The notes under the pieces are model-generated. The model was not told where the DNA came from, ran no database searches, and was given only the letters and a program-made list of their open reading frames with translations. Below, in pieces: positions 18,826 through 35,283 of a stretch of DNA of 64,000 nt. The stretch comes from Parasutterella secunda. GTDB taxonomy: Bacteria; Pseudomonadota; Gammaproteobacteria; Burkholderiales; Burkholderiaceae_F. Location: positions 62,001 to 126,000 of the forward strand of contig NZ_JAMBLT010000001.1 in the NCBI RefSeq assembly GCF_023336895.1, read 5' to 3'. Position 1 is the stretch's first letter. Every line of letters starts with the position of its first letter. Made by a program: the position numbers and the translations under genes.

Positions 18826-18837
18826 TCATTGGAAAAG

Positions 18838-18851: not shown

Positions 18852-18902
18852 CCTCAAAACAGCCCCTTAAAACATGGGCGTATTCAAACTCTTAGAAAAT
18901 TA

Positions 18903-18926
18903 CCCACCATCTAACCCACCAAAAAA
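18903..18926 (+). repeat. possible integrase arm-type sites, left end
   Basis: Two copies of CCCACC at 18903 and 18915, the second continuing as CCCACCAAAAAA. The same sequence in the same orientation occurs three times at the integrase end (35292-35355). Paired clusters of a short repeat at both ends of an element are typical of tyrosine-integrase arm sites. Confidence 0.5.
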
Positions 18927-19003
18927 TACTTTATTGACGAATTAGAATGGGTTAGAGACGTATTTTTTGTGAAATTTCAACGAGCATACAGCCAGGCACG
19001 ATA

Positions 19004-19588
19004 ATGTCACGACCAGTTTATCAAAAAGCCTTAAAAATAGGCTTTATTTTAGGTAGTCTAGCGACAATAGTAGGTTGCACTGCTGTCCCGTCTGCCAATC
19101 GTTTCCCTGACCAATGGGGGCTTAGTCCTGGACAACTCGAACATTCGTCATCTTTCTATGCCAAAGGTTACCAACAATTTAAATGTGCTGTTGATGATCA
19201 AGGCTACTATTGGCAGCACGTTAAGACAGAAGCTAACTTATATAGTCTGCTTTCTGAAATTCTTTTAATCATGACTGACGATGTTCCTGTTTCGGCAAAG
19301 TTGATTGCTCGTTCGGGAACTAAACAGGTTTTTACACACGTGGACGGCTCTTCAGTCCGAACAACAAGAATCATTTACAACACTCCCTCAAAAAACAAAA
19401 ATAACGATATCCCTCAACTATTTATGTCCGCTAAGTCATCTTCTTCTGGAGGACGAGCTTTTGACTCAGTCAAAACTATTTTTAGAACTGAAACAGAAGG
19501 CGGCATGCCTAACAGAGCCTGTGGCGCATCTTCATTAGGTCAGTTTCATAAGTCAACATTTAGTGCCGTTTACACATTTCGGAAGTAA
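19004..19588 (+). CDS. DUF3455-like lipoprotein, first gene of the island envelope cluster
   Basis: A 194-residue protein. The N-terminal hydrophobic stretch GFILGSLATIVGC ends in a lipobox (IVGC, Cys at ~25). The mature part has features I associate with DUF3455: an FKC...YYWQHVKTEANLYSLL stretch, THVDGSSVRTT near residue 112, and SVKTIFRTETEGGMPNRAC near 158 with a final SAVYTFRK. The family match is by eye and has no known biochemical role. It would sit in the outer membrane facing the periplasm. The next gene begins three bases after its stop, so an operon is likely. Translation signals are weak (AGG about nine bases upstream). Confidence 0.7.
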   Translation: MSRPVYQKALKIGFILGSLATIVGCTAVPSANRFPDQWGLSPGQLEHSSSFYAKGYQQFKCAVDDQGYYWQHVKTEANLYSLLSEILLIMTDDVPVSAKLIARSGTKQVFTHVDGSSVRTTRIIYNTPSKNKNNDIPQLFMSAKSSSSGGRAFDSVKTIFRTETEGGMPNRACGASSLGQFHKSTFSAVYTFRK

Positions 19589-19591
19589 CCT

Positions 19592-19987
19592 ATGGCAATC
19601 AAAAGATCTAGAAAGCTAAGCTCAACTACTCGAGTTAATTACGACTCTAAAGGAAGAATTACGAGTTATACATACGGGAAAAGAGGACAAACTAGAAACA
19701 TCAAAACAGACAGCCACCCTGTTAAACGCGCTAGACAAAAGAAAATAAGCAAAGATGGGGTTAAAGCTATGCTCCTCATTATGCTTATTGGTGGAGTGAT
19801 GTGGGTAATCGGTTTAATAGCAGTGGGCGTTCAAATTTCTATTGCAGCAATCAGTAATTTCTTTTCTGGAGATGAAGACGTTAAAGTCACTGAACAAATC
19901 AAAGAAACTCCAAAAGCCCCTGAACCACCTAAAGCGCAAACCTCAGATGTAAAGCAATCTCGTTCTGTTAGAGGTCAGGTTTTTTAA
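19592..19987 (+). CDS. single-pass membrane protein with C-terminal SVRGQVF tail
   Basis: A 131-residue protein I do not recognise. Order: a very basic N-terminal domain (~55 residues, including TRVNYDSKGRITSYTYGKRG), one long hydrophobic segment at ~59-85 (AMLLIMLIGGVMWVIGLIAV), then a low-complexity Pro/Lys/Glu tail ending in RSVRGQVF. The positive-inside rule puts the basic domain in the cytoplasm and the tail in the periplasm. The same C-terminal peptide ends two other proteins of this cluster. The stop overlaps the next start by one base (TAATG), implying coupled translation. Confidence 0.75.
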   Translation: MAIKRSRKLSSTTRVNYDSKGRITSYTYGKRGQTRNIKTDSHPVKRARQKKISKDGVKAMLLIMLIGGVMWVIGLIAVGVQISIAAISNFFSGDEDVKVTEQIKETPKAPEPPKAQTSDVKQSRSVRGQVF

Positions 19988-20298
19988 TGAAGATTCTTTC
20001 TGTCCTTTGGAAAATTTTTTTATTACCAGGGAAGTTCATTCTCTGGGATCGTTATATGCACCCTCCCAAAGGGAAAATTTTTCAAACAGGCCGCCAAAGG
20101 AGAAGTCTTTTCCATCAAATTCTTTTTTCCTTGTTTGGATGGTGGGTAATCATTGCTTTACTAGCAGAAACCCTCGCAGGTCTTGCTGCAGACTCTAAAC
20201 AAGAAGTTCAGCGTAGAGTTACGCCAAACTCTCAAACACAGCAATCACAAAATGTAACGCCCAGTCCGTCAACTAGTGTAAGACAACAGGTGTTCTAA
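19987..20298 (+). CDS. small membrane protein with C-terminal SVRQQVF tail
   Basis: A 103-residue protein, not recognised. A basic N-terminal region with HPPKGKIFQTGRQRRS precedes a hydrophobic segment at ~42-66 (ILFSLFGWWVIIALLAETLA). A Gln/Ser/Thr/Pro-rich, probably disordered tail follows and ends in TSVRQQVF. Layout matches the upstream protein: basic inside, one membrane pass, disordered outside tail, shared final peptide. It starts inside the stop codon of the preceding gene and ends two bases before the next gene. Confidence 0.72.
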   Translation: MKILSVLWKIFLLPGKFILWDRYMHPPKGKIFQTGRQRRSLFHQILFSLFGWWVIIALLAETLAGLAADSKQEVQRRVTPNSQTQQSQNVTPSPSTSVRQQVF

Positions 20299-20300
20299 CT

Positions 20301-20780
20301 ATGTACAAATTAATCTCTAATATCTTAGCTTTTTGCTTCATTGTCGTTTGCTTCATAAAAGGAGAGTTTCTTATTGGAGCGCTTTTAGTGACCTTGTGCT
20401 GTATGTTTTATTTTCGCAGAAGACCAACCTTCCCCGATATGAAAGAAAATGAAACAATCAGAGAGTACAGGCAAAGAAAAGCAGAAGAACACTACTCTCA
20501 ATCTATTTTGGAAATGAGACATAAATTAGAGGAGGACACAATACCCCTGATTCAAAGGTATGGCGCTCGTCATGTAAAAGAAGTTCTAGACCATATTCAC
20601 AAGGGCGAACTCTGGTGCGGCGCACATAAAGAAGAAGTAGAACGAATTTTGGGAGAGCCCTACGAAATCCAATACAAGGATTACACAGAGGACTGGTGTT
20701 ACGAACCCAGTAAAAATGCAAAGCGATTCGGAAAGCGCATTAAGTTTAAAGGAGATCGGGTTCATGATTTCAGAATCTAG
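20301..20780 (+). CDS. membrane protein with SmpA/BamE-like C-terminal domain
   Basis: A 159-residue protein. The N-terminus holds a hydrophobic hairpin or long helix (~3-38), then a charged, helical region (ENETIREYRQRKAEEHY). The C-terminal ~55 residues resemble the SmpA/OmlA (BamE) fold: LWCGAHKEEVERILGEPYEI, then WCYEP and FGKRIKFKGDRVHDFRI. BamE-type domains usually act in the periplasm; with two membrane passes this one would be cytoplasmic, so topology is open. Unlike its neighbours it lacks the SVRxQVF end. Its 3' end overlaps the next gene by 17 bases. Confidence 0.7.
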   Translation: MYKLISNILAFCFIVVCFIKGEFLIGALLVTLCCMFYFRRRPTFPDMKENETIREYRQRKAEEHYSQSILEMRHKLEEDTIPLIQRYGARHVKEVLDHIHKGELWCGAHKEEVERILGEPYEIQYKDYTEDWCYEPSKNAKRFGKRIKFKGDRVHDFRI

Positions 20781-21273
20781 ACCTTATGGTTACTACTCTT
20801 TACTACATACTCCCAGAGATGCCAACAAACAGTATTTGGCCTTAGCCTACATTGCACGCTATGAATCAATCAAATATGAGCACGGCGATGGCACACTTGA
20901 AGAATTAGAAAAAGCTATCTCTATTTTGGGAGATGATGCCTCAAGAAAATCTTATGACCTTCAGTTAGAAGCGGCATTAAAACAAAAAGCCGCAGAAAAC
21001 GAAGAATTCTTAAAGAATAAGCCTGAGGTACTAAAGCAGGAGCAAGCTCACAGAAAAAGTTGGGTTATTTTTGATTTTATTGTTCTGGGAATCTTTATTT
21101 TTACGATGATTTCTCAGTTCGATCCTGCTCCTAATTCCCATAAAACCGAAAGTCAAACTTTTTACTCTTCACAGGAAAGAGCTTCACAAACTACTACGGA
21201 TAAGTCAGAGTCAAAAACAACCCAAAAAGCAGAAAAACTTGGTAGTCGTTCTGTCAGAAATCAAGTGTTCTAA
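20764..21273 (+). CDS. J-domain-like single-pass membrane protein with C-terminal SVRNQVF tail
   Basis: A 169-residue protein. Residues ~8-65 read like a divergent J-domain: YGYYSLLHTPRDANKQYLAL, a central helix with KYEHGDG where DnaJ has HPD, then LEKAISILGDDASRKSYD. The HPD motif needed to stimulate Hsp70 is HGD, so classical activity is doubtful. A charged helix follows, then one membrane segment (~98-118, FDFIVLGIFIFTMISQF), then a Ser/Thr/Lys-rich tail ending in RSVRNQVF. The start at 20764 is chosen because AAAGGAG lies ten bases upstream; an earlier in-frame start at 20716 lacks one. Confidence 0.72.
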   Translation: MISESRPYGYYSLLHTPRDANKQYLALAYIARYESIKYEHGDGTLEELEKAISILGDDASRKSYDLQLEAALKQKAAENEEFLKNKPEVLKQEQAHRKSWVIFDFIVLGIFIFTMISQFDPAPNSHKTESQTFYSSQERASQTTTDKSESKTTQKAEKLGSRSVRNQVF

Positions 21274-21361
21274 TACAGGCTGACGACTTTCTTTTATACC
21301 TTGACAGAAATACTTAGGGGGAGGGTAAGCTGGGGGAGCGTTTATCTTTTCGGAGAATACA

Positions 21362-21733
21362 ATGAAAAAAGTTTTACTCTCTCTGTCAGTTCTAGCTTCA
21401 ATCTCATTTTTGAGCGGTTGCGCGACATCAACAGGAAAACCAGTTGAAGTTGTTGATGCTGATCATTCCGCTGGTACAGTAGAAATCGGCTATGTTCATG
21501 CTGCAAATATTCCCCTAATGGATGATGGAGAAAATGCACGTTGGGATATGGCCATTGCCTTAGCAGATGAAGTCTGTAAAAGATGGGGATATAAATGCGC
21601 AGATGAATTAACTCCCATGCCAGAACCGAAGGCAGAAAAAATGCCTACGTTTTTTTACTCAATTAAAAAATATATGTGCTTAGACAAAAATTGCCCCGCT
21701 CCTAAGTCTACGATTACTGAGCTAAAGAAATAA
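21362..21733 (+). CDS. YecR-like lipoprotein
   Basis: A 123-residue lipoprotein. Signal peptide MKKVLLSLSVLASISFLSGC with a clean lipobox (LSGC, Cys at 20). The mature part has GTVEIGYVHAANIPL and ALADEVCKRWGYKCAD, resembling the YecR-like lipoprotein family (VxxSY..., C.xWGY). No function is established for that family outside links to the flagellar regulon. GGAG lies upstream of the ATG. The 88-base gap before it contains TTGACA (21300-21305) without a convincing -10 box, so it may have its own promoter. The next gene starts within its stop codon. Confidence 0.75.
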   Translation: MKKVLLSLSVLASISFLSGCATSTGKPVEVVDADHSAGTVEIGYVHAANIPLMDDGENARWDMAIALADEVCKRWGYKCADELTPMPEPKAEKMPTFFYSIKKYMCLDKNCPAPKSTITELKK

Positions 21734-22146
21734 TGTTCAGAAACATTGTTTTTATTTCCATCGTGTCGTTAGTGGTTGCTGGTTGTAGCTCAATGTTTCC
21801 GCAACCACTAACGACAGGTTCTGCGCCTGTTCCTCCCTCTGTTTTTAAAAAACAGATGAGAAAGCTTGCCCTCAACGAATTAAAAGGGAATTACAGAAGT
21901 TCTAGTGCCACGAATTTCATTATCGAAATTCCCTGTATTCGTTTGGAAGACCATAGCAAATTGAGTTGCATGCGTTACATGATGGAAATGGGCGGTGACG
22001 AGAAATGGGAAGGACCTTATCTATCAGTAAAAATGTTTGCAATGGAAACAATCTTCGATCAAACTCAATTCGGGATTGAGATGAGAATGTGTGCTAGAGA
22101 CAGACAAGGCGGAGAGCATTGCCGACATCGTGTTTATAAGTACTAG
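21733..22146 (+). CDS. small lipoprotein, last gene of the envelope cluster
   Basis: A 137-residue lipoprotein of no family I recognise. Signal peptide MFRNIVFISIVSLVVAGC with lipobox VAGC (Cys at 18). The mature part has four further Cys residues (IPCIRLE, LSCMRYM, RMCARD, EHCRHR), which could form two disulfides in the periplasm. It overlaps the preceding lipoprotein gene by one base (TAATG). It is followed by a long hairpin and a convergent gene. Confidence 0.72.
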   Translation: MFRNIVFISIVSLVVAGCSSMFPQPLTTGSAPVPPSVFKKQMRKLALNELKGNYRSSSATNFIIEIPCIRLEDHSKLSCMRYMMEMGGDEKWEGPYLSVKMFAMETIFDQTQFGIEMRMCARDRQGGEHCRHRVYKY

Positions 22147-22173
22147 CAAGACCTTGCGGAGCACCTTCAAGAA

Positions 22174-22224
22174 AGAGGTTGGTAATTAGTCTATGGGGTT
22201 GCCATAGCTCTAATTACCACCTCT
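22174..22224. terminator. long hairpin between convergent genes
   Basis: Near-perfect stem AGAGGttGGTAATTAG / CTAATTACCacCTCT enclosing a second stem CTATGG / CCATAG. It lies exactly between the end of the lipoprotein cluster and the convergent gene at 22229. T tracts are weak. Confidence 0.6.
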
Positions 22225-22228
22225 CAAT

Positions 22229-22615
22229 TTAGTTTCTGAAACACTCAAAATCAGGGATGAATTCCACAGTAGGGAATTTCATTTCAAGTCTGCGCTTATC
22301 CTGCTTAGGAATTGCTACAAAAAGAGGCGCATTGGGAAACCTAATCTTTAATGCCTTTATGACTGTCTCAAGCGCCCCTTTGTCTTTAAGCTCAACCTTA
22401 ACAAAATCATCAAACTCTTCACTTAGGTACTTTTTGCAATCCTCTCCTACATACAAAATAAACTCACGATCTTCAGACAATGAACACCGATCAAATACCG
22501 GTTTGTGCTTGTCTCCAATCATTAGTTCAAACGTGTAGCCGCGCTTGTAATCAAACACTCTGACTTGAATGAGCTCTTTATTGCTCTGAATTGGTAGAAA
22601 ATATGAATTTGTCAT
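22229..22615 (-). CDS. hypothetical protein, 128 residues
   Basis: A soluble, charged protein without signal peptide or membrane segment, which I do not recognise. It has an alternating strand-like first half (IQVRVFDYKRGYTFELMIGD) and a helix near residue 83 (KGALETVIKALKIRFP), ending in FIPDFECFRN. It is convergent with the envelope cluster and divergent from the McrB-like gene, so it appears to be a single-gene unit. Low G+C matches the island. Confidence 0.6.
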   Translation of the reverse strand: MTNSYFLPIQSNKELIQVRVFDYKRGYTFELMIGDKHKPVFDRCSLSEDREFILYVGEDCKKYLSEEFDDFVKVELKDKGALETVIKALKIRFPNAPLFVAIPKQDKRRLEMKFPTVEFIPDFECFRN

Positions 22616-22872
22616 ATAAAGTTAAATCCTTTTATGAAGTTAGGTTATTGATCTTCATAAATAAAATTTATACCAATCAATTCATACCTACTGTGTACAA
22701 CACAAACTTTCGATCTCCGAGAAACTATGTTTTATTCAATAGAACTCCTTTCTTCTGTGTTTTGAGAATTCTAAATCTGGTCTTTCATGACAAACAAAGA
22801 AAATCTCGATCATCTCTGAGTTAAAATTAGTGAGTTATCATCACCCGTTTTTTATCAGCAGAGTAGTGGAAC

Positions 22873-25800
22873 ATGTTGTCTGATACCAAAAAAATCCAGT
22901 TATGGTCTTTTCTAGAACTTCAGAGACTTTTTAGCAGTATTAGTAAAGAAGATGCTGTTGCAATTAATAAGTTGTTCCCTAAACGCATGGGATCAAAAGC
23001 AGCTAGCATAACTAACTTTAAACAAGGGGTTAGAGCTAAACCGTCAACTTATGATTGGCGTAGAGACAAAGAGGTTATTCTTCACCTTGCAACTCACCCA
23101 AAATATCTAATAGTTATTGCTGATTTGCTGATAGAAAGAACCTCTACCTTATCTACTGAAGAATTCCAAAAGTTTTATGCTAATGCACGCAATGATGCCT
23201 GGCGAGCCCCTAGAGCTATGGTTTTAAAAGCCATGGGCGAACTTGTTGAGTTTGAAGATTTTTACTTAAAAATTCAAGACATTCGGGAGTGCCTAGAACA
23301 AAACCAATGTGATTACGTTGTTAGGCCCATTACTAATGCAGAGACACAAGCTTTCAAAAAAATGGACGATAAGATGAAACTGGAGGAATGTCTAAAAATC
23401 TTGAAACAGGAGGAAGAGGAAGAACAAGAAGAAGAGGCAGAAAATGCCCAAACTCTAAGTTCTAGTCATGAAAAGCCTACTATGCCATCAACTGAGGAAG
23501 GTTCTATGTCGCTATCCGATAATCTTAAGCACACCCAATATTTAGGATATATCCGACTTCAAAACGGATCTTTTTATAATTTCTATCCGACCGCAATAGT
23601 CAGAAATAACGAAGTTTATTCAATCCCTGAAGAAACAGTTAAACATCAATTTCCCAGTTATGGAGCCTTCGCATTAGCTAAGTCACATTTCAGAAACTCT
23701 CTAACTAAAAACTTGATAGACAATTACTACTACCTGATTGCAATTGATGAAAGTGATTTAGAGAATAACCACAACGATGATTACGTGTATCGTCTTAGTG
23801 ATTTTCAAAAGATAGTTCAAAGCGGTCGCTTCGAGCCTATTGAAAAAATTGGTGCTTACTTTGTTGTGTATCCGATTAATGCTAATGCTGCAATAAATGA
23901 CTCAGAAATTGATTTAAATACCTCAATTTATGTTAGTTTTACACCAAACGCTGAAGAAGATGCCGCCCTAAACTACTCAAAACGCATTGATGTAGTTCTT
24001 TCTTATGGTGATAAATTTTTAGGCCCCACTCCTTTAATACAAGACGCAAAAGGACGATACTATGTAAATTTCCGAAGTGGTTCCAAAAATGGTGAAATAG
24101 AGTGCTTCGAAGGTAAGAACTTAAATCAACAACTCTATAGATCAATGATCTTTGTTCATGATGCGGATAATGGACAAAACTGTTACCGTGATATCCTGTT
24201 GACTCGGCGCTCGGGAGTTCAGAGAAGCGTTATTGATACCTACGACGATAAAACATTACTTAAACGCATAGCAGAACAAAGTAGACAATTTGATAAAAAA
24301 ACGTTATCTCTAGTAATTGAGTGGCTAGACAAAACTGCATTAGATACCAATTTGTTAGGCTCTAATCTTGACATTCAGAAAAGCCGGAGAGACCGTTTAA
24401 AAGATATTATTAGCAATATCCAACTCAATGAATCTAATGTAGAGCAGTTTGCCAGTGTCATTACAAGTTGTTTATCTTTGGCGAAAGATGACGAAACTGG
24501 TTTCTTTGACAAATTAACCCTTCGCATTGCAAAAAACCCAACAGCTTTAGAAAATCTCAAAGAGTACAAAGCTATTCGTGATCAGATAGATGTTTTACTA
24601 AACGAAAAAAGTGGTTTAGAGCAGTCCATCTCTGTAAAACGTGAAGAATTATCCAAGATTGATGAAAAATACGAGAAGCAAAAGCAGGCAGAGCTAACTG
24701 AACAAGTCAATAAACTATTGCAACAACGAGATGAAGCAAAAACTCAACTTGATGATTTAATTAATAGCCAGAATGATGTAAAAAACTTAGCAGAAGTAAA
24801 ACAAAAATTAAGCGATTTAAAAGAAGAAATCAGACAGAAGCGTTGGAGTATTACGGACTATGAAAAAGAAATTGATAGGCTTAGCCACACGCTTATTGAG
24901 TCAGTAAAAGACGACAAAATTTCGAAATTAGCGTTTACGCCTGCTCTCGCTCATAAATTTTCGGAAGCAGCTGCTTTATGGGTTTCAAATAAAAAAGAGG
25001 ACGAGCTTAGTAAAAAAGAAATCGTTTTAAATAAATTACAAATGTCTGACTTATCTAGTCAAGAACTAGTCGAATACTTATATTCAGCAACGTCCAAGCA
25101 CCGTAATTACGATCGTAATACAATCCTGAACCTTTACATTTGCCTTGCTCAAGGCTTTTTAACCGTTTTTTCTGGGCAACCTGGCTGTGGTAAAACGAGT
25201 ATTTGCAACATAATTTCCACAGTTTTAGGCTTAAATTCCTATGGATACAGGGCTGGTACGTCTTTAGATATCAATCGTTTCCTTCAAGTTTCAGTAGAAC
25301 GAGGTTGGACCAGTAAGCGTGATTTCTTGGGATATTACAACCCCTTGAGCAAAACATTTGAAACACAAGATGCAAAGCGCCATGAGTGCTTCAAACTCCT
25401 TGACAGAGAAGCGAAACAAAACAGATTCACTCATCCCTTCATAATACTGCTTGATGAAGCCAATTTGAGTCAAATGGAATACTACTGGGCTGACTTCATG
25501 AATATTTGTGACAACCAAGTTGGTATGGGTTCTATCCATCTTGGAGATGGCCATAGATATCTAGTCCCTAATACTCTTCGATTTTTGGCAACAATTAACA
25601 ACGATCAAACCACAGAAATTCTCTCTCCTCGCTTGATTGACAGATCATGGGTTGTATCTTTACCTAAACCTATTTTTGATGATTATTCCGTTCTAACTTC
25701 CGAAGTAACAGAATGCAATCCAAAGGACGATAGTATTGAATTAGTCAACTGGGAAACTTTTACTAAAATTTTTAGTCTCCCATTTGTCCGGGAAGATGTG

Positions 25801-26151
25801 AGCCGCTACGATGAAAAAATAAATACGATGATGAACTCGATCATCAAATTAGTTAAGGGATTAGGCATCAACGTATCTGCTCGCTCATACCGAGCCATGA
25901 TGAACTATATTTATGTTGCAACTTATTGGTTTAAATCTGAGGATATGGGTTCTAGCTATACTCCTGCGATAGACTTCGCAGTAGCTCAAAAATTATTACC
26001 TTGCATCAGCTGTGTTGGGGCTCAATATGAAACACCTCTTAATGAACTATTAAACTTTTGTGAAACAAATGATTTAACCAAGTCCGCAGAGATCTTAACG
26101 GATATCATAACTCGCGGTGAGCGCGCCATGCATATGTACTCTTTCTTCTAA
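22873..26151 (+). CDS. McrB-like AAA+ ATPase with large N-terminal region (type IV restriction-like)
   Basis: A 1092-residue protein. An acidic low-complexity stretch lies near residues 175-190. Residues ~560-690 are strongly coiled coil (EKSGLEQSISVKREELSKI and similar). The AAA+ domain follows: Walker A GQPGCGKTS at 768-776, Walker B IILLDEANLSQ at ~857-867, sensor region ATINNDQTTEILSPRLIDRS near 906. McrB GTPases carry MNxxD there; the INNDQ wording and A/G-type Walker A make ATP or GTP use uncertain. The nuclease gene follows after 10 bases. Together they look like a McrBC-type modified-DNA or nucleic-acid restriction pair. The ribosome site is poor (GTGGA). Confidence 0.82.
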   Translation: MLSDTKKIQLWSFLELQRLFSSISKEDAVAINKLFPKRMGSKAASITNFKQGVRAKPSTYDWRRDKEVILHLATHPKYLIVIADLLIERTSTLSTEEFQKFYANARNDAWRAPRAMVLKAMGELVEFEDFYLKIQDIRECLEQNQCDYVVRPITNAETQAFKKMDDKMKLEECLKILKQEEEEEQEEEAENAQTLSSSHEKPTMPSTEEGSMSLSDNLKHTQYLGYIRLQNGSFYNFYPTAIVRNNEVYSIPEETVKHQFPSYGAFALAKSHFRNSLTKNLIDNYYYLIAIDESDLENNHNDDYVYRLSDFQKIVQSGRFEPIEKIGAYFVVYPINANAAINDSEIDLNTSIYVSFTPNAEEDAALNYSKRIDVVLSYGDKFLGPTPLIQDAKGRYYVNFRSGSKNGEIECFEGKNLNQQLYRSMIFVHDADNGQNCYRDILLTRRSGVQRSVIDTYDDKTLLKRIAEQSRQFDKKTLSLVIEWLDKTALDTNLLGSNLDIQKSRRDRLKDIISNIQLNESNVEQFASVITSCLSLAKDDETGFFDKLTLRIAKNPTALENLKEYKAIRDQIDVLLNEKSGLEQSISVKREELSKIDEKYEKQKQAELTEQVNKLLQQRDEAKTQLDDLINSQNDVKNLAEVKQKLSDLKEEIRQKRWSITDYEKEIDRLSHTLIESVKDDKISKLAFTPALAHKFSEAAALWVSNKKEDELSKKEIVLNKLQMSDLSSQELVEYLYSATSKHRNYDRNTILNLYICLAQGFLTVFSGQPGCGKTSICNIISTVLGLNSYGYRAGTSLDINRFLQVSVERGWTSKRDFLGYYNPLSKTFETQDAKRHECFKLLDREAKQNRFTHPFIILLDEANLSQMEYYWADFMNICDNQVGMGSIHLGDGHRYLVPNTLRFLATINNDQTTEILSPRLIDRSWVVSLPKPIFDDYSVLTSEVTECNPKDDSIELVNWETFTKIFSLPFVREDVSRYDEKINTMMNSIIKLVKGLGINVSARSYRAMMNYIYVATYWFKSEDMGSSYTPAIDFAVAQKLLPCISCVGAQYETPLNELLNFCETNDLTKSAEILTDIITRGERAMHMYSFF

Positions 26152-26161
26152 TTGAAATACC

Positions 26162-27931
26162 ATGGCTGCTCCAAAATTACGGTTATTACTTCACGGTCAA
26201 AAGTGTTTTGATTGCGAGTTGTCAACTCGAAGGAAAATGCTTACTGCTGAAGAAATCTTGAGGATTAACCGCTCAGTTATAGCTGACGGATGTTACACCT
26301 TTGAACTATTTGATTTCGATACGTCTGAACAAATTTCAATGAGTATTAACGGTGTCGATGTTATTACTAACAATTTAGTAAAGGACAATAAGCTTGAGCT
26401 AATCCCCACATATAGCTTTTTGTCAAAATATAACTTTGACAAGCCTTTTGCTGATTTTTTTGGATTCATTCAAATCGAAATTATCATTGGCAGCCAATCT
26501 TGGTTTTCTGAGTTTTTACAGATTTTACTGCCAGAGAATGAGTTCACTAATGATTTAAAAGCCATGGCACGTTATGTTGCTAATAACCAAGATGCTTTAC
26601 TTGTAACGGACTCGCCGTCTCTGAGTTTCACTAACTCACCCAACCCAGATTCCGATCCACCTGATACGTTAGCCACTCTTAATAAAACATTGGAAACAAT
26701 AATCCATGTGTATGAACGACATATTGGCTATTTTAAAGGACACGCAGAAACAAAACTCATCCAAATCCAGAAACGAGATAACTTTGAAAAAATTAAGAAT
26801 TTCTCCGGTCATACACTGTCAAGTATTTTGCAAAATCCCGGTGAGTTAATACCAGTCACCTATTCAACTGGCTTAACTGATGGGTGGCATTATTATCAAC
26901 CTCTTCATGCATTAGTTGCAGACAATGTCCAATCACGTGATACTTATGAAAACTCAGTAATTTTAAGTTTCTTGAGTCATATATCTCAAAAAATCATCCT
27001 TGTTTTAAATGATGTTCAGAATCTTTTAGATCAGGACCTTTATGAGTCTAAAATCCAAGGATACATTTCATCAATTGATGCAATTTGGACTTCACTTCAT
27101 GGGCGTCTAAGCAACGAAATTGAACATTTGAAGAACATTAAAACAAAAATAGAACAACTTTTGGTAATTTATAGACGTCTTTTACCCGTTAAAGAAATGC
27201 AGATTACAAGTATGCCTCAGGCAAATCAGGTTTTCTTACGGGTCCCTACTTACCGACTATTTTTTGAACTTATCGGTCAATGGTTTTCTTTACCTCAATT
27301 TAATCTCAAAAATGAAATTCTAATTTTTACTTTTCTTCTCAATAGCAGACTCTACGAATACTTTGTACTTCTTAGTGAGATTAATGCGATTATCTCACAG
27401 GGTTTTAAACCTGTACGAAATAGTAAATTTGATTGGAGTCTCACAGAGAAAAATATCATTCCCGAAGATGACTTTTTTGCTAACACTTTTACATTTATAA
27501 AAGAAGACACAACAGTTACGCTTTATTTCCAACCTGTTGTGGGGGGCCATCAGCAAATCGATGACAACGGCGTCGAACTAAGACGGATCACGACCCTTAA
27601 ATATAATTCGGAAGCCAGAGGTGGTTATTATTACAGACCTGATTACATCATTAAAGTTCAAAACAGTTCCTCGACTGAATATACTATTCTGGACGCTAAG
27701 TATTCAAAGTATGAAGTTGTTCGTTCACAATATGCAGCAGAATTAGCATTTAAGTATTTAATGAGTATTCGGTGCTGTAAAAATACTGATCAACTCAGGG
27801 GACTTCATGTTTATTACGGGAAACGCTCTCTTGCAAAGAACTCAGTCAAAAGCTTTTGGAATTTGCTTGATGATGACGTAGCCAATCAATCAAAACCATT
27901 CTTTACAACTGAAGGTAGATTTCCTATCTAA
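26162..27931 (+). CDS. McrC-like nuclease partner (DUF2357, PD-(D/E)XK)
   Basis: A 589-residue protein, probably the effector of the AAA+ protein upstream. The N-terminal two thirds are mixed and helical, resembling DUF2357. The C-terminal part has a PD-(D/E)XK nuclease core: RPDYII with P493-D494, then TILDAKYSKYE with D511 and K513, followed by a helix (QYAAELAFKYLMSI) that carries the usual Q. Tandem arrangement with a McrB-like motor is the standard McrBC layout. No methyltransferase is nearby, consistent with a modification-dependent system. Confidence 0.8.
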   Translation: MAAPKLRLLLHGQKCFDCELSTRRKMLTAEEILRINRSVIADGCYTFELFDFDTSEQISMSINGVDVITNNLVKDNKLELIPTYSFLSKYNFDKPFADFFGFIQIEIIIGSQSWFSEFLQILLPENEFTNDLKAMARYVANNQDALLVTDSPSLSFTNSPNPDSDPPDTLATLNKTLETIIHVYERHIGYFKGHAETKLIQIQKRDNFEKIKNFSGHTLSSILQNPGELIPVTYSTGLTDGWHYYQPLHALVADNVQSRDTYENSVILSFLSHISQKIILVLNDVQNLLDQDLYESKIQGYISSIDAIWTSLHGRLSNEIEHLKNIKTKIEQLLVIYRRLLPVKEMQITSMPQANQVFLRVPTYRLFFELIGQWFSLPQFNLKNEILIFTFLLNSRLYEYFVLLSEINAIISQGFKPVRNSKFDWSLTEKNIIPEDDFFANTFTFIKEDTTVTLYFQPVVGGHQQIDDNGVELRRITTLKYNSEARGGYYYRPDYIIKVQNSSSTEYTILDAKYSKYEVVRSQYAAELAFKYLMSIRCCKNTDQLRGLHVYYGKRSLAKNSVKSFWNLLDDDVANQSKPFFTTEGRFPI

Positions 27932-28045
27932 CTAAAATTTTTTTATCTTATCGAGATTTTATTCGTTTCACGTCCCTCTGCGGGACATTTGGAGATTTTG
28001 CAAAATACCTTAATAAGCAAAAATGTATAAAAGTGTTTATCAACA

Positions 28046-28900
28046 TTAAAAACGAAAACGATGCCGATACCGAGGGCGCAACGTTAATGGATTTCGCAAT
28101 AAGTCTCTAATTGGATAGGCTCGGTAATTCCTTGCAATCCTAGCTTGTTCAGCCTGCCATTCCTTGTACACAAAATTCATTATCGGCGAAAAGAAGTCCT
28201 TGCCAGCCAAAACGCTTTGAGCAAAATCTTCTTTACTGATAAAAGCCGCTACAGCACTATCCGAGTATTGAGGGAAAAGGCAACAAAGTTCTAAAGAACC
28301 AATTGACAAGGAATCTTCTAGCACCTGCAAATCTGGATGAGACGTAAAGTCGAAAAATATTGGCACTGGTAGCTTCAGCCACGTTTTATTGAAAACTTCG
28401 TCAGCAAAATAAAACTCAAAGAAATTGGTTCTCTGTACTGGCCAATAAGGAATAGGGGCCATCTTCTTAAAATCATGAGAAGAAAATACTTTGATCAATT
28501 TCGGAAAATCAGTCTTCCTTCGGCAACCGTCAACAACCCAAAGAATGTGCTTATAAAAGTTATTCCTTGACTGAAGCTCTTCAGGTTTGATGGCTGAATG
28601 TTGAAACTCAATTACCAAGCCGTTTGGAGTCAACACATCAGCAACGTGCTTTTCTCCTGTCTGTTCATCGTACCTCGTTTGCTCTTGCCACGATTGAGGG
28701 AAGCGGCTCTTCCATTCTCTGTGCCACTCAGTTTCAGATTCCCACCAAGAATCGCAGTCTTTTCTACTTAAATGAGCCCAATGGGCATGCCTAAACTTAC
28801 CGCATTTTGCGACAACATCAGTTCCACAAAACGGACATTTTCCCTTTTGACCAGAAACTTCAGCTTTCGACAACACACCATTGATGTACGCATTTAACAT
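28046..28900 (-). CDS. CoiA-like nuclease with N-terminal zinc finger
   Basis: A 284-residue protein. CPFCGTDVVAKCGKFRHAHWAH near residues 22-43 is a zinc-finger-like segment with CxxC and H/C ligands. A CoiA-type nuclease domain follows: TEWHREWKSRFP, HVADVLTPNGLVIEFQHSAI (D and E-x-Q in the PD-(D/E)XK positions), then LQSRNNFYKHILWVVDG. CoiA was first described as a competence-linked protein; related nucleases occur alone in mobile islands. It is convergent with the DUF2357 gene. Role here is not known; a DNA-processing or defence function is inferred. Confidence 0.78.
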   Translation of the reverse strand: MLNAYINGVLSKAEVSGQKGKCPFCGTDVVAKCGKFRHAHWAHLSRKDCDSWWESETEWHREWKSRFPQSWQEQTRYDEQTGEKHVADVLTPNGLVIEFQHSAIKPEELQSRNNFYKHILWVVDGCRRKTDFPKLIKVFSSHDFKKMAPIPYWPVQRTNFFEFYFADEVFNKTWLKLPVPIFFDFTSHPDLQVLEDSLSIGSLELCCLFPQYSDSAVAAFISKEDFAQSVLAGKDFFSPIMNFVYKEWQAEQARIARNYRAYPIRDLLRNPLTLRPRYRHRFRF

Positions 28901-29117
28901 AAAACACCTAAAAATCGTCTATTTGATTAATGTGTTATAACAGCAATTACTTCAATATGTGATGTAGGCAGGTGTTGAATAACGCTTCGAGAGGGTCTAA
29001 CGGGTCTTTTAACCTATTAAGGCTATGTTCGTAGTTAAGTGCTTTCGTTTGTCAAATAAACGATTTTGTTAAGAATAAAACAAGTCTTCAATTGAAAGGG
29101 AGCTACTAACAACAGCA

Positions 29118-29230
29118 TTTTCCCAACATAAACGTCTTTTAATCTTATTGTTTTAGGGCATCTACTCGGTCACTTCGTGCCCTGCGTGATGCCTAAAAAA
29201 TTCGCTTAAACTCCGTTTCTGTTGGGGAAA
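29118..29230. repeat. nested imperfect inverted repeat in the 536-base gene-free gap 28901-29436
   Basis: Outer arms at 29118-29134 (TTTTCCCAACATAAACG) and 29214-29230 pair at 15 of 17 positions plus one G-T. Inner arms at 29151-29162 (TTTTAGGGCATC) and 29188-29198 (GATGCCTAAAA) pair fully with one bulged G. A small CAC/GTG hairpin is central. The whole could fold as one ~112-base cruciform or RNA. The rest of the gap is AT-rich, holds a tandem GTTAGATCC and a promoter-like TTGACA, and shows no reading frame that I trust. Confidence 0.6.
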
Positions 29231-29271
29231 GTGATAGTTAATCGTTAAAGCCCATATACTCCTGACAACCC

Positions 29272-29289
29272 GTTAGATCCGTTAGATCC
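29272..29289 (+). repeat. tandem GTTAGATCC repeat
   Basis: Two head-to-tail copies of the 9-mer GTTAGATCC, nine bases upstream of the TTGACA box for the HNH gene. They could be a regulator site or chance. Confidence 0.4.
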
Positions 29290-29297
29290 TCTCAATT

Positions 29298-29326
29298 TTG
29301 ACAATGCTTGTTTACAGAGATAAAAA
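29298..29326 (+). promoter_or_regulatory. candidate promoter for the membrane HNH gene
   Basis: TTGACA (consensus -35), 17-base spacer, TAAAAA (four of six -10 positions). Transcription would start near 29333, leaving a ~100-base leader before the ATG at 29437. Confidence 0.45.
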
Positions 29327-29436
29327 GCCAACTTTCTTTTACAATACCTGCACCGTGCGGCCTACGAGCTGCATTGAAACCGATCCCTGTGGGGTGTTTC
29401 GCCGTCCTACAATTTACAACTATTACTCATCGTTTT

Positions 29437-31119
29437 ATGGCCTGGATAATCTCTATACTCGCAGTTGTTTTTCTTGTCTCCTTGATCAGTGCCGAGGTTT
29501 GGGCAGTAATTGGCGCTGTAATTGTGATTTGTCTTGCTGTTGTAGTAATTAATCAACAGAAAAAGAAAAAGCAACGAGAGGAAATTCAGAAAATTATTGG
29601 TCTTAGCGATGCAGAAATGACTCCGGATCATTTCAGCTACCCTGTAAAAGTGATGAGTCGAGCGACGTTAGACAAATACGACACCTTGAAATTTTTTAAA
29701 GAACAACCCGATATCTTAGCCATCGCCAAAGAGCATATCGAAACAAACAAAGATCGCGCACACAAACTCGAAGAAATTTTGAATGATAAGAATTTAGATT
29801 TGTATAGTGATTTTCGCTCTGAACTTCAGAAGCTGCACAAAGATTTGGTTTGCTATAGGGTACTTATTAGTTACCAAACCAAAAAGACTCTATCGACGCG
29901 GAATCTCTATATTTCCATGGAAGAAATTACTGAAATAGAGAGCCAACCGCATCTTCTTATTGGAAAAACTGAGTACAACCGACAATTAAAGCAAATGCTT
30001 GCAGACAAGCAGCATGAGATGTACGACCGGATCAATAGCATTATTGATGTAGCCAATGAATCTCGAGATCATCTAATCCTGAAGGGATCGCAAAATAAAC
30101 TTGATGGATTAATTGCTGGACTTTTCAGCGAAGTAGTCTCTAGTGTTCGAAAAATCAAGTCCGTGGATAGCCTTGAATGGGAACTGATAGAAAAACAAGT
30201 TGGAAAAATTGAGAGAGAGGTGGAGGATATGCTCGGCCTCAACAAAAAGATTCTCGACTACTACGAGTCCCCTGATTTTGAGCGAATCAAGAACACTTGT
30301 CAATCAATGATTAATTCGCAAAAAGAATTTAATGACTACATTAAGCAAAAAGTTGAGTCGATCTCTAAACTTTTCGGCAAACGGACTCTTCGAGAAGAAA
30401 CAGTCTTTGAAGATAAGAACCAATATGTACGAGCATACAAAAAAACGGTTGCTCCCTTTACAGCACAGGTATCTGCTCAAGTGTTCTCAAGTGCAGAAAA
30501 CAATCCCATGGGCTATCTCGTAAAAACGTTCTATCCGAACAAAGCCGCATATCCACAACAAATTCAGGATCTTTACAAGCTAGTCGAAGAATTAGAAACT
30601 TTGAGAGATGCGAAAGAGATCATCGAGAACTACAAAACCGAATACAAACAGTACATTGGTAACGTACCAGACTACGTCATGGATAACGATTCTGACGGCT
30701 TTTATTCTCGTCTTGGTTTTGCACAGGTTGACGAAAGCACGCTTACAGTCGAGTATGTGTTTACCTACACGTCATCTGGCGGCAAGGCACAGCGAAGCTT
30801 CAGCGTACCGATGACACTTGAAACGATTGAGGAACTTATTAACACACTCAAGAGCAAACTCACAAAGGAAGCGTTTATTAAAGAGCAACGTCTCCTGATG
30901 ACCCCGAAACTTCGCGAAACGGTCAAGGAACGCGATCTCTACACATGCTGTATGTGTGGAAATTCAATCACTAAAGAACCTAACCTACTTCTTGAGATCG
31001 ACCACATTATCCCTGTGTCGAAAGGGGGCGAAACAATTCCTTCGAATCTCCAGACTTTGTGTTGGAAGTGCAACCGCTCTAAGAGTAATAAGATTCTTCA
31101 TGATGGTAGCTCTGAATAG
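29437..31119 (+). CDS. membrane-anchored coiled-coil HNH endonuclease
   Basis: A 560-residue protein. The start at 29437 gives an N-terminus of two closely spaced hydrophobic segments (AWIISILAVVFLVSLI and WAVIGAVIVICLAVVVI), then KKKKQRE, which favours a membrane hairpin with the bulk in the cytoplasm. The middle ~400 residues are charged and helical. The C-terminus is a zinc-braced HNH domain: CCMCGNS near 504, EIDHIIPVSKGGE near 520, NLQTLCWKCNRSKSNK near 540. An in-frame TTG start at 29308 would overlap the promoter-like box. A surveillance role against invading DNA at the membrane is an inference. Confidence 0.8.
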   Translation: MAWIISILAVVFLVSLISAEVWAVIGAVIVICLAVVVINQQKKKKQREEIQKIIGLSDAEMTPDHFSYPVKVMSRATLDKYDTLKFFKEQPDILAIAKEHIETNKDRAHKLEEILNDKNLDLYSDFRSELQKLHKDLVCYRVLISYQTKKTLSTRNLYISMEEITEIESQPHLLIGKTEYNRQLKQMLADKQHEMYDRINSIIDVANESRDHLILKGSQNKLDGLIAGLFSEVVSSVRKIKSVDSLEWELIEKQVGKIEREVEDMLGLNKKILDYYESPDFERIKNTCQSMINSQKEFNDYIKQKVESISKLFGKRTLREETVFEDKNQYVRAYKKTVAPFTAQVSAQVFSSAENNPMGYLVKTFYPNKAAYPQQIQDLYKLVEELETLRDAKEIIENYKTEYKQYIGNVPDYVMDNDSDGFYSRLGFAQVDESTLTVEYVFTYTSSGGKAQRSFSVPMTLETIEELINTLKSKLTKEAFIKEQRLLMTPKLRETVKERDLYTCCMCGNSITKEPNLLLEIDHIIPVSKGGETIPSNLQTLCWKCNRSKSNKILHDGSSE

Positions 31120-31193
31120 ATTCGACATATTTGCACTGTTGGTGAGTGGGCATCACTCTCAGACGTGTGGATGGCGGCTTTCATTTTGAACCA

Positions 31194-31220
31194 GGCCGCT
31201 CACTCTTTTGAGGAGCGGCC
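31194..31220. terminator. hairpin between convergent HNH and DUF3631 genes
   Basis: Perfect 8-bp stem GGCCGCTC / GAGCGGCC with a short T-containing loop. T tails are absent, so it may act only weakly in either direction. Confidence 0.45.
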
Positions 31221-31228
31221 ATATCAGC

Positions 31229-32341
31229 TTATCGATAACGCTTATACGCGTTGATCAACTTATCAGTTCGATAACAACGTTTGTTGTTAAGTTGCGAGTT
31301 TTGAAAAGTTTGGATTTCAAACTCTCCCATAAATAACGATAGCTTTTTCGCTGATAGCTCGACCCATGTTGGATCTTTTCTTAGCTCCGCCAACAGATCC
31401 TCTGTGCTTATTGACGTTTGTGGATAATCCTTAACGATTACATACACATCCCTCAGTAGCCGAACTGCCTCGGTTTGCGACAAAGCTTCTGTTTTCGTCA
31501 ACACTCGACGGCTGGCCTCTTTAATTTTCTCAACGGTGCGAGGATCGGCACAGCATTCTGCAATGGCCCACAGAGGCTCAATATTGTCCATCTGTCGATC
31601 GTTCAAGTCATCAGGGAACACCATATCCCCTTTGTTTATCAACGTAAAGACATCAGCTCCATGCTGTTGAGCCAGAGTGAACAACTTGCGCCGCAAGATT
31701 TCACATTGCTCTTTAAATTGTTTCAAACGGCAGCGTTCCATCTGCTTCGTTTTACGAACCAATTCAATCACAATGCTTCGATCAGTCAGGGTGTCACTGA
31801 TTTTAGATGCTTTGATCCCGGCAATCGCCTTAAAACCAAAGCAGCTGAAAGCAACAATTTCTCCGCCGTAATTACCATTGGCATTGATTGCCGTGCGAAG
31901 AACGCGACCGTCCCGAGAGTTACCACAATTTAAGATCGAGGCAAAATCTAAACGTGAGTTCAAATAGCGATCGGCCTCATCCATCAATAACGTTGGGCAG
32001 TCCTTGGCCATTACTCGGAAGGTAGCCGCTGCCGTCAAATCTCCCGACATTACAGGGAACCGAACTATTTCTGCCAGTACCTTTAGCAGCTTGGTTTTAC
32101 CGCAACGTTTTGTTGGCGAGGTGATCAACAAATACGGCAAGTAATCCAAGTGATCCACGAACCACGTGGACACCACCCATTGACTAACGAGTAGTCGTTG
32201 AGCGCCCTTCATTGACACGAACTTTTTTATCAGTTCGTTGACCTCTTTCAAAACCGCTACAAACTCAACTTGTTCAGGCCATTGCTCTGGCGCTTCAAAT
32301 TTAAGTTCTGTGAAATTTTCAAGTCCTTTTTTTTCAGGCAT
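31229..32341 (-). CDS. DUF3631 ATPase (mobile-element replication module)
   Basis: A 370-residue protein with a P-loop ATPase core: TSPTKRCGKTKLLKVLAEI (Walker A) near residue 75, TLLMDEADRYL (Walker B) near 112, then CFGFKAIAGIKASKISDTLTDRS. This is the DUF3631 family, found as stand-alone proteins or fused to primases in phages, satellites and integrative elements. The start at 32341 is set by a strong AAAGGAGG seven bases upstream. It overlaps the preceding gene's stop by eight bases, so translation is coupled. A helicase or loader role in element replication is an inference. Confidence 0.78.
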   Translation of the reverse strand: MPEKKGLENFTELKFEAPEQWPEQVEFVAVLKEVNELIKKFVSMKGAQRLLVSQWVVSTWFVDHLDYLPYLLITSPTKRCGKTKLLKVLAEIVRFPVMSGDLTAAATFRVMAKDCPTLLMDEADRYLNSRLDFASILNCGNSRDGRVLRTAINANGNYGGEIVAFSCFGFKAIAGIKASKISDTLTDRSIVIELVRKTKQMERCRLKQFKEQCEILRRKLFTLAQQHGADVFTLINKGDMVFPDDLNDRQMDNIEPLWAIAECCADPRTVEKIKEASRRVLTKTEALSQTEAVRLLRDVYVIVKDYPQTSISTEDLLAELRKDPTWVELSAKKLSLFMGEFEIQTFQNSQLNNKRCYRTDKLINAYKRYR

Positions 32342-32717
32342 AGTAGCCTCCTTTGTCAAATTGATAGGTCTGCATTTGTGGCTCTTTAATTTGAAAGGTA
32401 CTTGTGATAACGATTCGAGGATTCAAGAATCCCAAAGGAACGTTTATCACTTCCGCTGTAGCGACAACACGTTGCTGATCTTGCTGAGCCGCTTTTTGTT
32501 CCAACTGTGAGTCAAACCAAACGGCCTCTTGCCCAGTTTTGAGGTTTTTGACATAACCTCCATCAACGTTGGGGAAGACGAATAGATCGGCCTCACGCTG
32601 GTTATATCGGTCTCCAATTACATTTAATTGGAGCGTTTGACCTGCTGGGGGGAGACTTCCTGAAAAGTCAACACCGACTGCCAAGCAGGCGATTGAAGCT
32701 GATGAAAATATTTTCAT
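32334..32717 (-). CDS. hypothetical protein coupled to the DUF3631 gene
   Basis: A 127-residue protein I do not recognise. The start at 32717 is chosen because AAAGGAG lies six bases upstream; an earlier frame-open stretch to 32807 has none. The sequence is strand-rich and contains LPPAGQTLQLNVIGDRYNQR, VWFDSQLEQKAAQQ and PRIVITSTFQIKEPQM. Its length, beta-rich look and place before a replication ATPase would fit a single-stranded DNA-binding or accessory replication protein, but no motif proves that. Confidence 0.6.
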   Translation of the reverse strand: MKIFSSASIACLAVGVDFSGSLPPAGQTLQLNVIGDRYNQREADLFVFPNVDGGYVKNLKTGQEAVWFDSQLEQKAAQQDQQRVVATAEVINVPLGFLNPRIVITSTFQIKEPQMQTYQFDKGGYYA

Positions 32718-32851
32718 CGTTAACTCCTTTGCCGCCTCGACTGACAGTCCGTGATAGACTTGCGATCGAGGGCGGCCACTTTTGTTGATTGGTTGTTGAA
32801 CCTGCACCTGCGAAGTAACGGTTCAACGCCTTTTGCTTAGCTGCCCTTTTT

Positions 32852-33061
32852 CTATGCTTGTTTCATTTTGTTGCCTCCTTGATCACGGCCCTCAAGCCAC
32901 GCCTGAATTTCGTCCAACTTCCAAGCCGTAACCCCTGTCGAAATTTTGATCGGCCTTGGGAATTCTGGCTTGAATTTGCTCCAACGCCATACCGTTGAGC
33001 GGCTCACCGAGAGCATTGCCGCAACGGTTGGAACCCTTATTAATTGAGATGCTTCCATCAT
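32852..33061 (-). CDS. AlpA-family regulator / excisionase
   Basis: A 69-residue MerR-like helix-turn-helix protein: LIRVPTVAAMLSVSRSTVWRW (helix-turn-helix), KFKPEFPRPIKIS, then WKLDEIQAWLEGRD. This is the AlpA/prophage CP4-57 regulator family, which in P4-like elements controls the integrase and excision. Two adjacent ATG codons are possible starts (33061 or 33058) behind GGGAGA. The inverted repeats just upstream are good operator candidates. It would be transcribed away from the integrase, towards the DUF3631 module. Confidence 0.85.
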   Translation of the reverse strand: MMEASQLIRVPTVAAMLSVSRSTVWRWSKFKPEFPRPIKISTGVTAWKLDEIQAWLEGRDQGGNKMKQA

Positions 33062-33129
33062 CGTCTCCCTAATGTTTTGTTTTCGCTAGCGATGATGGAA
33101 TTGTGAAATAAAAAGCTTCAGTTGTGTGA

Positions 33130-33168
33130 GAATCGCGATTCGCGATCTAGTAATGGCCTAGATCGCGA
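33130..33168. promoter_or_regulatory. inverted-repeat cluster upstream of alpA (operator candidate)
   Basis: GAATCGCGATTC (perfect 12-base palindrome, 33130-33141) overlaps TCGCGATCTAG (33140-33150), which is inversely repeated as CTAGATCGCGA at 33158-33168. A related palindrome TCGCTAGCGA lies at 33083-33092, closer to the alpA start. The arrangement suggests several binding sites for one dimeric protein, possibly AlpA itself or the integrase. Confidence 0.5.
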
Positions 33169-33180
33169 TTCGATGAGGAG

Positions 33181-33975
33181 CTACTTCTTATCGATCTTGC
33201 CTAGAGGAAAGTTTTTAGTAAATTTTTTATAAGTTGAAAACTCTTCTGTTCGCACTAAAGAACTTAAAAATTCCCTTAAACGATTATGTTTTAAGCCAAA
33301 AAATTTCCCATCCTCTTCAAAGATTGCATTGGGTAATTTTTTGTCAAAAAAATCACTCAATTGTTTTGAATCTCTGAAAATTGGTTTTGAAAAATCCGGC
33401 GGATTAAGATCGTCATACCAAGCTAAATAATAAGCTTCGTAGGCAATTTGAATAAAATAATCAATTCTTATCCCTTTTGACAAAAGAAACTCTGCCTGCT
33501 TAATTTCCTTCTCTGAGAGAGTTAGTGGTTTAATTGCCTTTTCATGAGCATCAGGTTGCTCATTTTTTTGATCTTTTTTAGACATGTTTTTTAATCTTGA
33601 TGGAAAGCCTATTTCCTTCTTGTAACGATCAAAAAGAATCGGTCTTTCTTGGTAAATAAAATATTTTTTCCATTTCTGCTTTACCCACAACATGAGATCT
33701 ACTAGATCAATTTTTGTGGTTATTGCTTGATTAAAATCATTTTCCGAAATTTGGTATTTTCTGTATAAACGCCTATTTTTTGAAAAATCATTGATGATTA
33801 CCTCTCGAATCTCAGTGATGTGATCCAAAAAGCTCATATCACCTATCTCTTCCAATTTTTCGGTAAAGTCACAATCGCAAAAATAAAAACTTGCCTCTTG
33901 AATAGACCAAAATTCTTTTTTGATTAAGCTCTGCCTTTGTTGTTCAGTTAGCCTTAATGAAGCAATTTCTATCAT
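33181..33975 (-). CDS. hypothetical protein translationally coupled to the integrase
   Basis: A 264-residue soluble protein, not recognised. It is Lys/Phe/Tyr-rich with AT-rich codons, contains FWSIQEASFYFCDCD near the N-terminus and a linker of K/E/Q (NMSKKDQKNEQPDAHEKAI) near residue 130. Its ATG lies three bases behind the integrase stop, with AAGGAG inside the last integrase codons, so it is very likely made together with the integrase. A role in excision or maintenance is possible but unproven. Confidence 0.65.
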   Translation of the reverse strand: MIEIASLRLTEQQRQSLIKKEFWSIQEASFYFCDCDFTEKLEEIGDMSFLDHITEIREVIINDFSKNRRLYRKYQISENDFNQAITTKIDLVDLMLWVKQKWKKYFIYQERPILFDRYKKEIGFPSRLKNMSKKDQKNEQPDAHEKAIKPLTLSEKEIKQAEFLLSKGIRIDYFIQIAYEAYYLAWYDDLNPPDFSKPIFRDSKQLSDFFDKKLPNAIFEEDGKFFGLKHNRLREFLSSLVRTEEFSTYKKFTKNFPLGKIDKK

Positions 33976-33978
33976 TCA

Positions 33979-35283
33979 TTACTCCTTAGACAAACAGTAA
34001 TTAGCCCAAGCCTGCATCATTTCTGCACGGCTCTTTAACGCCTGATTGCGTTCATATGCTCCATTGTAAGCATCATCAATTTTGTGGTGTAAACAAAGCT
34101 CTGCGATAGAAGCTGAGAAGCGCTTGTCATTGCCTAATTCATCATCTTGCGCCCAAGTTCTAAACGTTGCGCGTGCCAAACCGTGAGGCGTTGCTACCGC
34201 AGGCAATTCGTTCTTTGTCTTTTGTTTCGGATCAACAAAACCCTTCTCCCCTTTTTCCAAAGCCTGCATATGTAATGCACGAATCACAACCTTGAGAGCC
34301 GCATCTGATAGCTTGCCGTTACCCATTGGCGAAGGGAATATGTAGCGAGAATAACCCTGCGTTTGCACTGAACGGATTAACTCAAGCGCTTGATCACTTA
34401 AAGGTACAATGTGATCACCATTCGCAGAGGCTTTCATCTTCTCCGCTGGAATAATCCATTGCTTCTTATCCCAATTAATTTCTTCCCATAATGCCTCTCT
34501 GGCATTGCCTGAGCGTGTTGCAGTTAAGATGGCAAATTGCAAGCAACGCGCGGCTATTCCCTCATACTGCATCAAAGCTTTCATAAAGCGCGGCATTTCA
34601 CTAACAGCCAACATGGCGTGATGTCTCGGTTCTTGAATAATCCGCTTCGGTAGTAAATGCTGAAGGACTTGTGGATCGACAGGATTAGCACCATCAAAAT
34701 AATCTTTGGCTTTTGCCCAAGAAAACATTTGGCGCAACATTTGACGAGTTTTGGCCGCTACCGCTCGGTGCTGCAACCAGAGCGGCTGCAATACTTCTGC
34801 GATCTGCTGAGGGGTGACTTCACTGATAACTCTCTTACCTATGATGGGCAGAATGTAGCGACCTAGACGACTGAAGAATAAATCACGATCTTTTACAGAC
34901 CAATCAGAAAAGGTGTCTTTGTATTGAATAAATAAGTCAGCTAATTTGGATACAGTAATTGCCGCTCGTTCTTGACGAACGGCTTCTTCTCTTTGCTTTT
35001 GCAAAGTCTCTTCACGCAGCAGCAAAGGATCAATCCCTTCACTAATTTGCATCCTATATTCAGCCGCTTGCTCACGAGCACGCTTTAGTGAGCAGACGCT
35101 ATAAGAACCGATTGTGATTTCTCGACGAGTTTTAGTAACAGGAGAGGTGTAACGGAAAAAGAAAGTTTTCTGGAAATTTTTGATTCGCAATGCTAATCCG
35201 ACAACTCCACCAACAAAGTAAACCCCGTCTCCTTTGAGTCTGCGAACTTGCAAATCGGATAATGTGGTAGCGACTTTCGGCAT
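33979..35283 (-). CDS. int: P4-type tyrosine integrase
   Basis: A 434-residue recombinase. The N-terminal DUF4102-type arm-binding domain (TLSDLQVRRLKGDGVYF, TIGSYSVCSLKRAREQA) is followed by a core-binding region and the catalytic domain: ATRSGNAREALWEEI (first Arg), HGLARATFRTWAQDDE (HxxR box) and LHHKIDDAYNGAYER (nucleophilic Tyr). All catalytic residues are present. It starts ~180 bases from the 3' end of tRNA-Glu with GGGAGGG upstream, the usual position for an integrase using a tRNA end as attachment site. Confidence 0.93.
   Translation of the reverse strand: MPKVATTLSDLQVRRLKGDGVYFVGGVVGLALRIKNFQKTFFFRYTSPVTKTRREITIGSYSVCSLKRAREQAAEYRMQISEGIDPLLLREETLQKQREEAVRQERAAITVSKLADLFIQYKDTFSDWSVKDRDLFFSRLGRYILPIIGKRVISEVTPQQIAEVLQPLWLQHRAVAAKTRQMLRQMFSWAKAKDYFDGANPVDPQVLQHLLPKRIIQEPRHHAMLAVSEMPRFMKALMQYEGIAARCLQFAILTATRSGNAREALWEEINWDKKQWIIPAEKMKASANGDHIVPLSDQALELIRSVQTQGYSRYIFPSPMGNGKLSDAALKVVIRALHMQALEKGEKGFVDPKQKTKNELPAVATPHGLARATFRTWAQDDELGNDKRFSASIAELCLHHKIDDAYNGAYERNQALKSRAEMMQAWANYCLSKE

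Follow-up and report, generated by a model that had tools for sequence, protein, structure and literature searches.

The gene at positions 29437 to 31119 on the forward strand of a 64,000-nucleotide stretch of Parasutterella secunda DNA (the window) encodes a predicted membrane-anchored HNH protein of 560 amino acids, recognized from its open frame, Pfam and AlphaFold2. This combination of membrane anchor and HNH domain is conserved, and apart from HNH it has no name in the libraries searched. Its most likely use, which we favour by a narrow measure, is that of a single-gene, membrane-anchored nuclease that would cut DNA at entry in the manner of the SNIPE protein. In this model, the helical and beta-hairpin parts would encounter either emerging DNA or proteins of phage ejection, the HNH domain would nick or cut the DNA where it enters, and membrane anchoring would hold the enzyme away from the chromosome. 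Sequence evidence backs the anchor, an intact HNH site, a layout kept across the family and a spread over several lineages; the topology, the signal sensed, the cleavage and any resulting defence are what we infer.

The protein belongs to the long form of its family, and all of its parts are encoded on the forward strand. The N-terminal hydrophobic anchor (aa 1-38, positions 29437-29550; hydropathy, AlphaFold2 and a check of start codons) is followed by the motif KKKKQR and then by a first alpha/beta module (aa 60-175, 29614-29961) that contains a beta-hairpin (139-160). A stretch of long helices (aa 176-274, 29962-30258; family alignment and AlphaFold2) leads into the core that long and short forms have in common (aa 275-490, 30259-30906; alignment and AlphaFold2), which includes a second beta-hairpin at 438-459. 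The HNH nuclease domain (aa 491-553, 30907-31095; Pfam, alignment and structure searches) carries zinc cysteines at 504, 507, 542 and 545. The AlphaFold2 model, built on a 57-row alignment, has a mean pLDDT of 88 and gives the same order, with an N-terminal helix at 2-54, helices with the first hairpin, long helices at 177-276, the core with its hairpin, and HNH. The initial annotation had described some 400 residues of charged helix and coiled coil; the middle is indeed mostly helical, but it is broken by the two beta-hairpins, and only aa 176-274, the stretch missing from the short form, are coiled-coil-like.

The zinc-braced HNH domain that had been placed at the C-terminus is borne out by a Pfam match (PF01844, aa 504-552, E 1.7e-13), and further HNH matches were obtained with PADLOC, NCBIfam and PHROGs. 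The four zinc cysteines together with D522, H523, N537 and N546 are invariant in all 57 aligned members, these rows having been chosen from the 113 family loci plus the window protein. Outside HNH, Pfam gave nothing convincing and no named family was encountered in the libraries searched; the N-terminus has one weak membrane-protein match (NF052278, E 0.0044, far under its cut-off). Structure searches for a known fold in the middle region gave only HNH and generic helical bundles, by which a new fold is not thereby shown. In a profile comparison using all rows, aa 60-178 matched core residues 340-489 with a probability of 69% (P 4.4e-5), with the helical stretch as control giving P values of 0.12 and 0.19; the probability was 69% with short-form rows and 7% with long-form rows alone. 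That the first module is a diverged inner duplicate of the core is thus suggestive only.

The membrane tethering of the window protein is well supported by sequence, and the membrane location proposed earlier stands in this predicted form. Residues 1-38 make up a single continuous hydrophobic run with Glu20 within it, and 19-residue Kyte-Doolittle means are 2.02-2.86 for windows starting at aa 1 to 24. Two separate N-terminal membrane segments arranged as a helical hairpin had been claimed; the segment finder merges aa 1-38 into one, and the model has one N-terminal helix. The ATG at 29437 has no obvious Shine-Dalgarno sequence, and a scan for promoters and terminators returned sites no more numerous than in shuffles. 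Were translation to begin at the TTG of aa 16, one hydrophobic segment would be retained, but not if it began at the GTG of aa 30; the initial annotation had recognized that a true start beyond the hydrophobic part would undo its proposal. Such a downstream start is disfavoured on sequence grounds: homology to anchor-bearing relatives extends up to about aa 40, and the upstream start is therefore favoured, not proven.

Relatives offer a wider view of the anchor. Ahead of the core, a hydrophobic segment is present in 40/40 long-form and 43/43 short-form representatives with a complete N-terminus (7 of 90 representatives were dropped as truncated or lacking a gene model), compared with 6/44 HNH-only comparison proteins (2 of 46 dropped). 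The concern that homologues might all be soluble was examined and failed, all 83 complete representatives having a segment at a threshold of 1.6, lowered from 1.7, at which one protein (L097) showed none. The kind of anchor varies while the core stays: a single segment is found in 31 of the 40 complete long forms, two segments in 9/40 long and 16/43 short forms, and a TM2 domain serves as anchor in L084 and L097. The sequence following the last segment is richer in lysine and arginine than that preceding the first in 29/40 long and 37/43 short forms, which suggests that the nuclease domain lies on the cytoplasmic side. Many bacterial nuclease toxins carry HNH domains, and the hydrophobic N-terminus could be read as serving membrane passage of a bacteriocin or polymorphic toxin; we regard this as very improbable, as the basic residues after the anchor suggest a nuclease inside the cell, and no immunity-like gene is seen among the neighbour families present in at least 5 loci. 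These families, counted from genes of at least 80 aa so that a short immunity protein might have escaped, are HTH proteins, recombinases, one 7-locus cluster and genes of closely related prophages.

The family was assembled by several searches. With tblastn the window protein matched 18 plasmid and 52 phage records, many of them HNH-only; as a single query it found no relative in a scan of genome contigs, whereas an alignment query did. The alignment scans yielded 79 genome loci (from the best 80 of 266 candidates) and 80 viral-contig loci (of 92), of which 79/79 and 34/80, respectively, are counted as members by a match to the window protein at E < 1e-30. The search for the same architecture that the initial annotation had proposed thereby gave a family of at least 113 loci, of which 53 are long forms and 60 short; its true size is greater, because the genome and viral lists kept best matches only. 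At 85% identity the loci reduce to 90 representatives, 46 long and 44 short. Long forms occur mostly in gut Bacillota, and short forms in prophages, plasmids, actinobacteria and others. In a tree of 86 rows the two forms are split with 100/100 support, and the origins named are Bacillota, Mycoplasmatota, Fusobacteriota, Pseudomonadota, Actinomycetota and Bacteroidota, many of them being metagenome bins, which can be mislabelled. The window protein falls among mostly Bacillota long forms, beside L077 (85/93, a branch that is not firm). Of 349 genomes of the window's order, just two gave core-covering matches, the window's own and G155, whose copy has an internal stop. Because of this placement and this rarity within the order, the window gene was probably acquired from gut Bacillota.

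SNIPE (PD-lambda-1) is the best analogue for the window protein. As described in PMC13190303, SNIPE combines a membrane anchor with DUF4041 and a GIY-YIG nuclease, binds the tape measure protein and cuts phage DNA during injection; the anchor-less protein is toxic in a nuclease-dependent manner, and one predicted membrane segment is present in 59% of homologues and two in 7%. Its authors regard recognition by place, the injection site, as a previously unknown form of self/non-self discrimination (PMC13190303). The likeness extends to a single gene, a variable N-terminal membrane segment (present in the window protein by hydropathy only), a helical middle, a C-terminal nuclease and a wide, patchy spread. 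The nucleases differ, however, being HNH in the window family and GIY-YIG in SNIPE, and the main text of PMC13190303 does not mention HNH. Pfam detected neither GIY-YIG nor DUF4041 in the window protein, and comparison of 9 DUF4041 proteins (one a fragment) with the 114-row family profile gave probabilities of only 0.3-0.5%. A DUF4041 search was positive in 0/61 relatives and in 9/349 genomes of the phylum. Membership of SNIPE was therefore rejected, neither of its domains being detectable, and the window family is considered a functional analogue because the layout is the same and the parts differ. No literature on an HNH version of a SNIPE-like nuclease was found among open-licence PMC articles.

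Among solved structures the window's HNH domain is nearest to those of Gme HNH, EcoKMcrA and ScoMcrA, with which it has the HNH fold in common. This proximity would suit a type IV-like restriction nuclease, in which the middle domains read modified or foreign DNA, the anchor only concentrates the enzyme at the membrane and phage ejection machinery is not sensed. We consider such an enzyme unlikely, since the likeness to EcoKMcrA is confined to HNH and that to ScoMcrA is weak elsewhere, a modification-reading domain of McrA-like type IV enzymes has no Pfam match in the window protein, fold searches being weak outside HNH, and retention of the anchor in 83/83 relatives is not explained by this reading alone. 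The Septu protein PtuB also has an HNH domain in common with the window protein (PADLOC E 1.1e-7), but the match is limited to aa 474-552, and PtuA was not found in a PADLOC scan of five neighbouring proteins.

The entry-blocking role proposed in the initial annotation has a precedent in SNIPE, and the lysogeny-module position and Ltp repeats of relatives lend it indirect support. Terminal Ltp repeats (PF07553) are present in two Psychrobacter members (L023, 1319-3067; L093, 7881-9383), and a separate Ltp protein is encoded in a gene adjoining a third relative (L096). Among solved structures, the L023 repeats match chain 4eqq, which is described as a putative host cell surface-exposed lipoprotein and which we take to be the Ltp protein of TP-J34. 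The Ltp-fusion model (L093) is weaker, with a mean pLDDT of 72. The Psychrobacter plasmid copy is annotated as an 'Ltp family lipoprotein' from a methionine just past its hydrophobic stretch, so that annotated starts can hide the anchor. Another relative (L099) ends in a SHOCT domain. TP-J34 ltp sits in the lysogeny module, a position that adds to the likeness, and the Ltp target is a tape measure protein according to the title of a paper referenced in PMC3952083. As described there, TP-J34 Ltp is a lipoprotein acting outside the cell membrane, whereas the Ltp repeats of the relatives are predicted inside, which weighs against the SNIPE-like reading, as does the absence of PF07553 from the window protein (by Pfam) and of any Ltp domain from the long form.

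The genomic setting of the two forms differs. For short forms, an integrase or serine recombinase lies within 4 kb in 15/44, an HTH gene ends within 1.6 kb upstream in 15/44, and both are found in 10/44; for long forms the corresponding counts are 2/46, 5/46 and 0/46, with context profiles seeded from these same loci. Both features, HTH upstream and recombinase downstream, occur in 3/26 short forms from genomes and 7/18 from viral contigs, so the short-form share is inflated by selection, 7 of the 10 coming from the viral collection. Pfam assigned, among 98 short-form neighbours (43 upstream and 55 of 78 downstream), 8 phage integrases, 7 HTH_3, 5 ImmA/IrrE-type proteins and 2 serine recombinases. 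By analogy, the position of these short forms between an HTH gene and a recombinase is as for superinfection-exclusion genes. Some family members reside in integrated viruses, so the window protein could cut viral DNA entering the cell. The long-form setting is a point against the SNIPE-like reading. PADLOC families (E <= 1e-15) near long forms numbered 26 in 115 genes (of 118 neighbour candidates), not above the 35 in 100 control genes, which were taken from the window's own genome and so belong to another lineage than most neighbours; this also counts against the reading, and enrichment in defence islands is unsupported by this count. The listed long-form matches (25 families shown) include type I and type IV restriction, SpbK, pAgo, PbeA and PD-T4-3; those of the control (25 families shown) are, on a post hoc reading, presumably mainly housekeeping desulfurase and helicase families and transposon nucleases.

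A broader proposal, which we advance tentatively and somewhat doubt, is that the family forms a second, independently assembled class of entry nuclease, in which HNH is joined to swappable anchors (single helix, two segments or TM2), some members adding an Ltp module with a possible affinity for tape measure proteins. The prophage-borne short form would serve superinfection exclusion, the island or chromosomal long form would carry a duplicated recognition module, and the family would have converged with SNIPE on cutting during injection. If true, the same layout built a second time from unrelated parts for recognition and cleavage would mean that the strategy arose more than once, and superinfection exclusion by prophages would be tied to direct DNA cutting.

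The GC content around the window gene itself is low, 0.395 across 18757-35283 compared with 0.478 and 0.48 in the flanking DNA, and an integrase, a tRNA-Glu and defence-like genes accompany it; a repeat of the tRNA end was looked for on the left side and not found. The low GC, the integrase and the defence-like genes count in favour of the SNIPE-like reading. This integrase-bearing stretch, with members elsewhere on plasmids and islands, would fit a protein that blocks entry of plasmid or conjugative DNA, or serves competition among mobile elements, with phages not the main target. We hold this to be quite improbable, the lysogeny-module position and Ltp repeats of relatives pointing to phages. 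Between the HNH gene and the integrase (33979-35283) lie genes for a DUF3631 protein and an AlpA-type regulator (31229-33061, reverse strand), an arrangement beside an integrase as in P4-like satellites or islands. A 178-base piece of the tRNA region recurs at 98% identity elsewhere in the window genome, on a different contig (G000 C9, 1949-2126).

Upstream, an adjoining gene pair (22873-27931, forward strand) encodes an AAA protein like the PADLOC candidate PDC-M26A (E 3.4e-29) and a 589-aa partner without a Pfam match; homologues of both are encoded near the long-form HNH gene of Merdimonas faecis (L032). A CoiA-like protein (PF25164, E 1.5e-6; PF06054, E 2.5e-4) is encoded at 28046-28900 on the reverse strand, and a CoiA-type domain is counted among defence finds in PMC9519451. 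Among the short forms, one member (L021, 1959-2954) is flanked by IS1216-family copies on a mobilizable plasmid of Vagococcus lutrae, and optrA is present on the same plasmid record.
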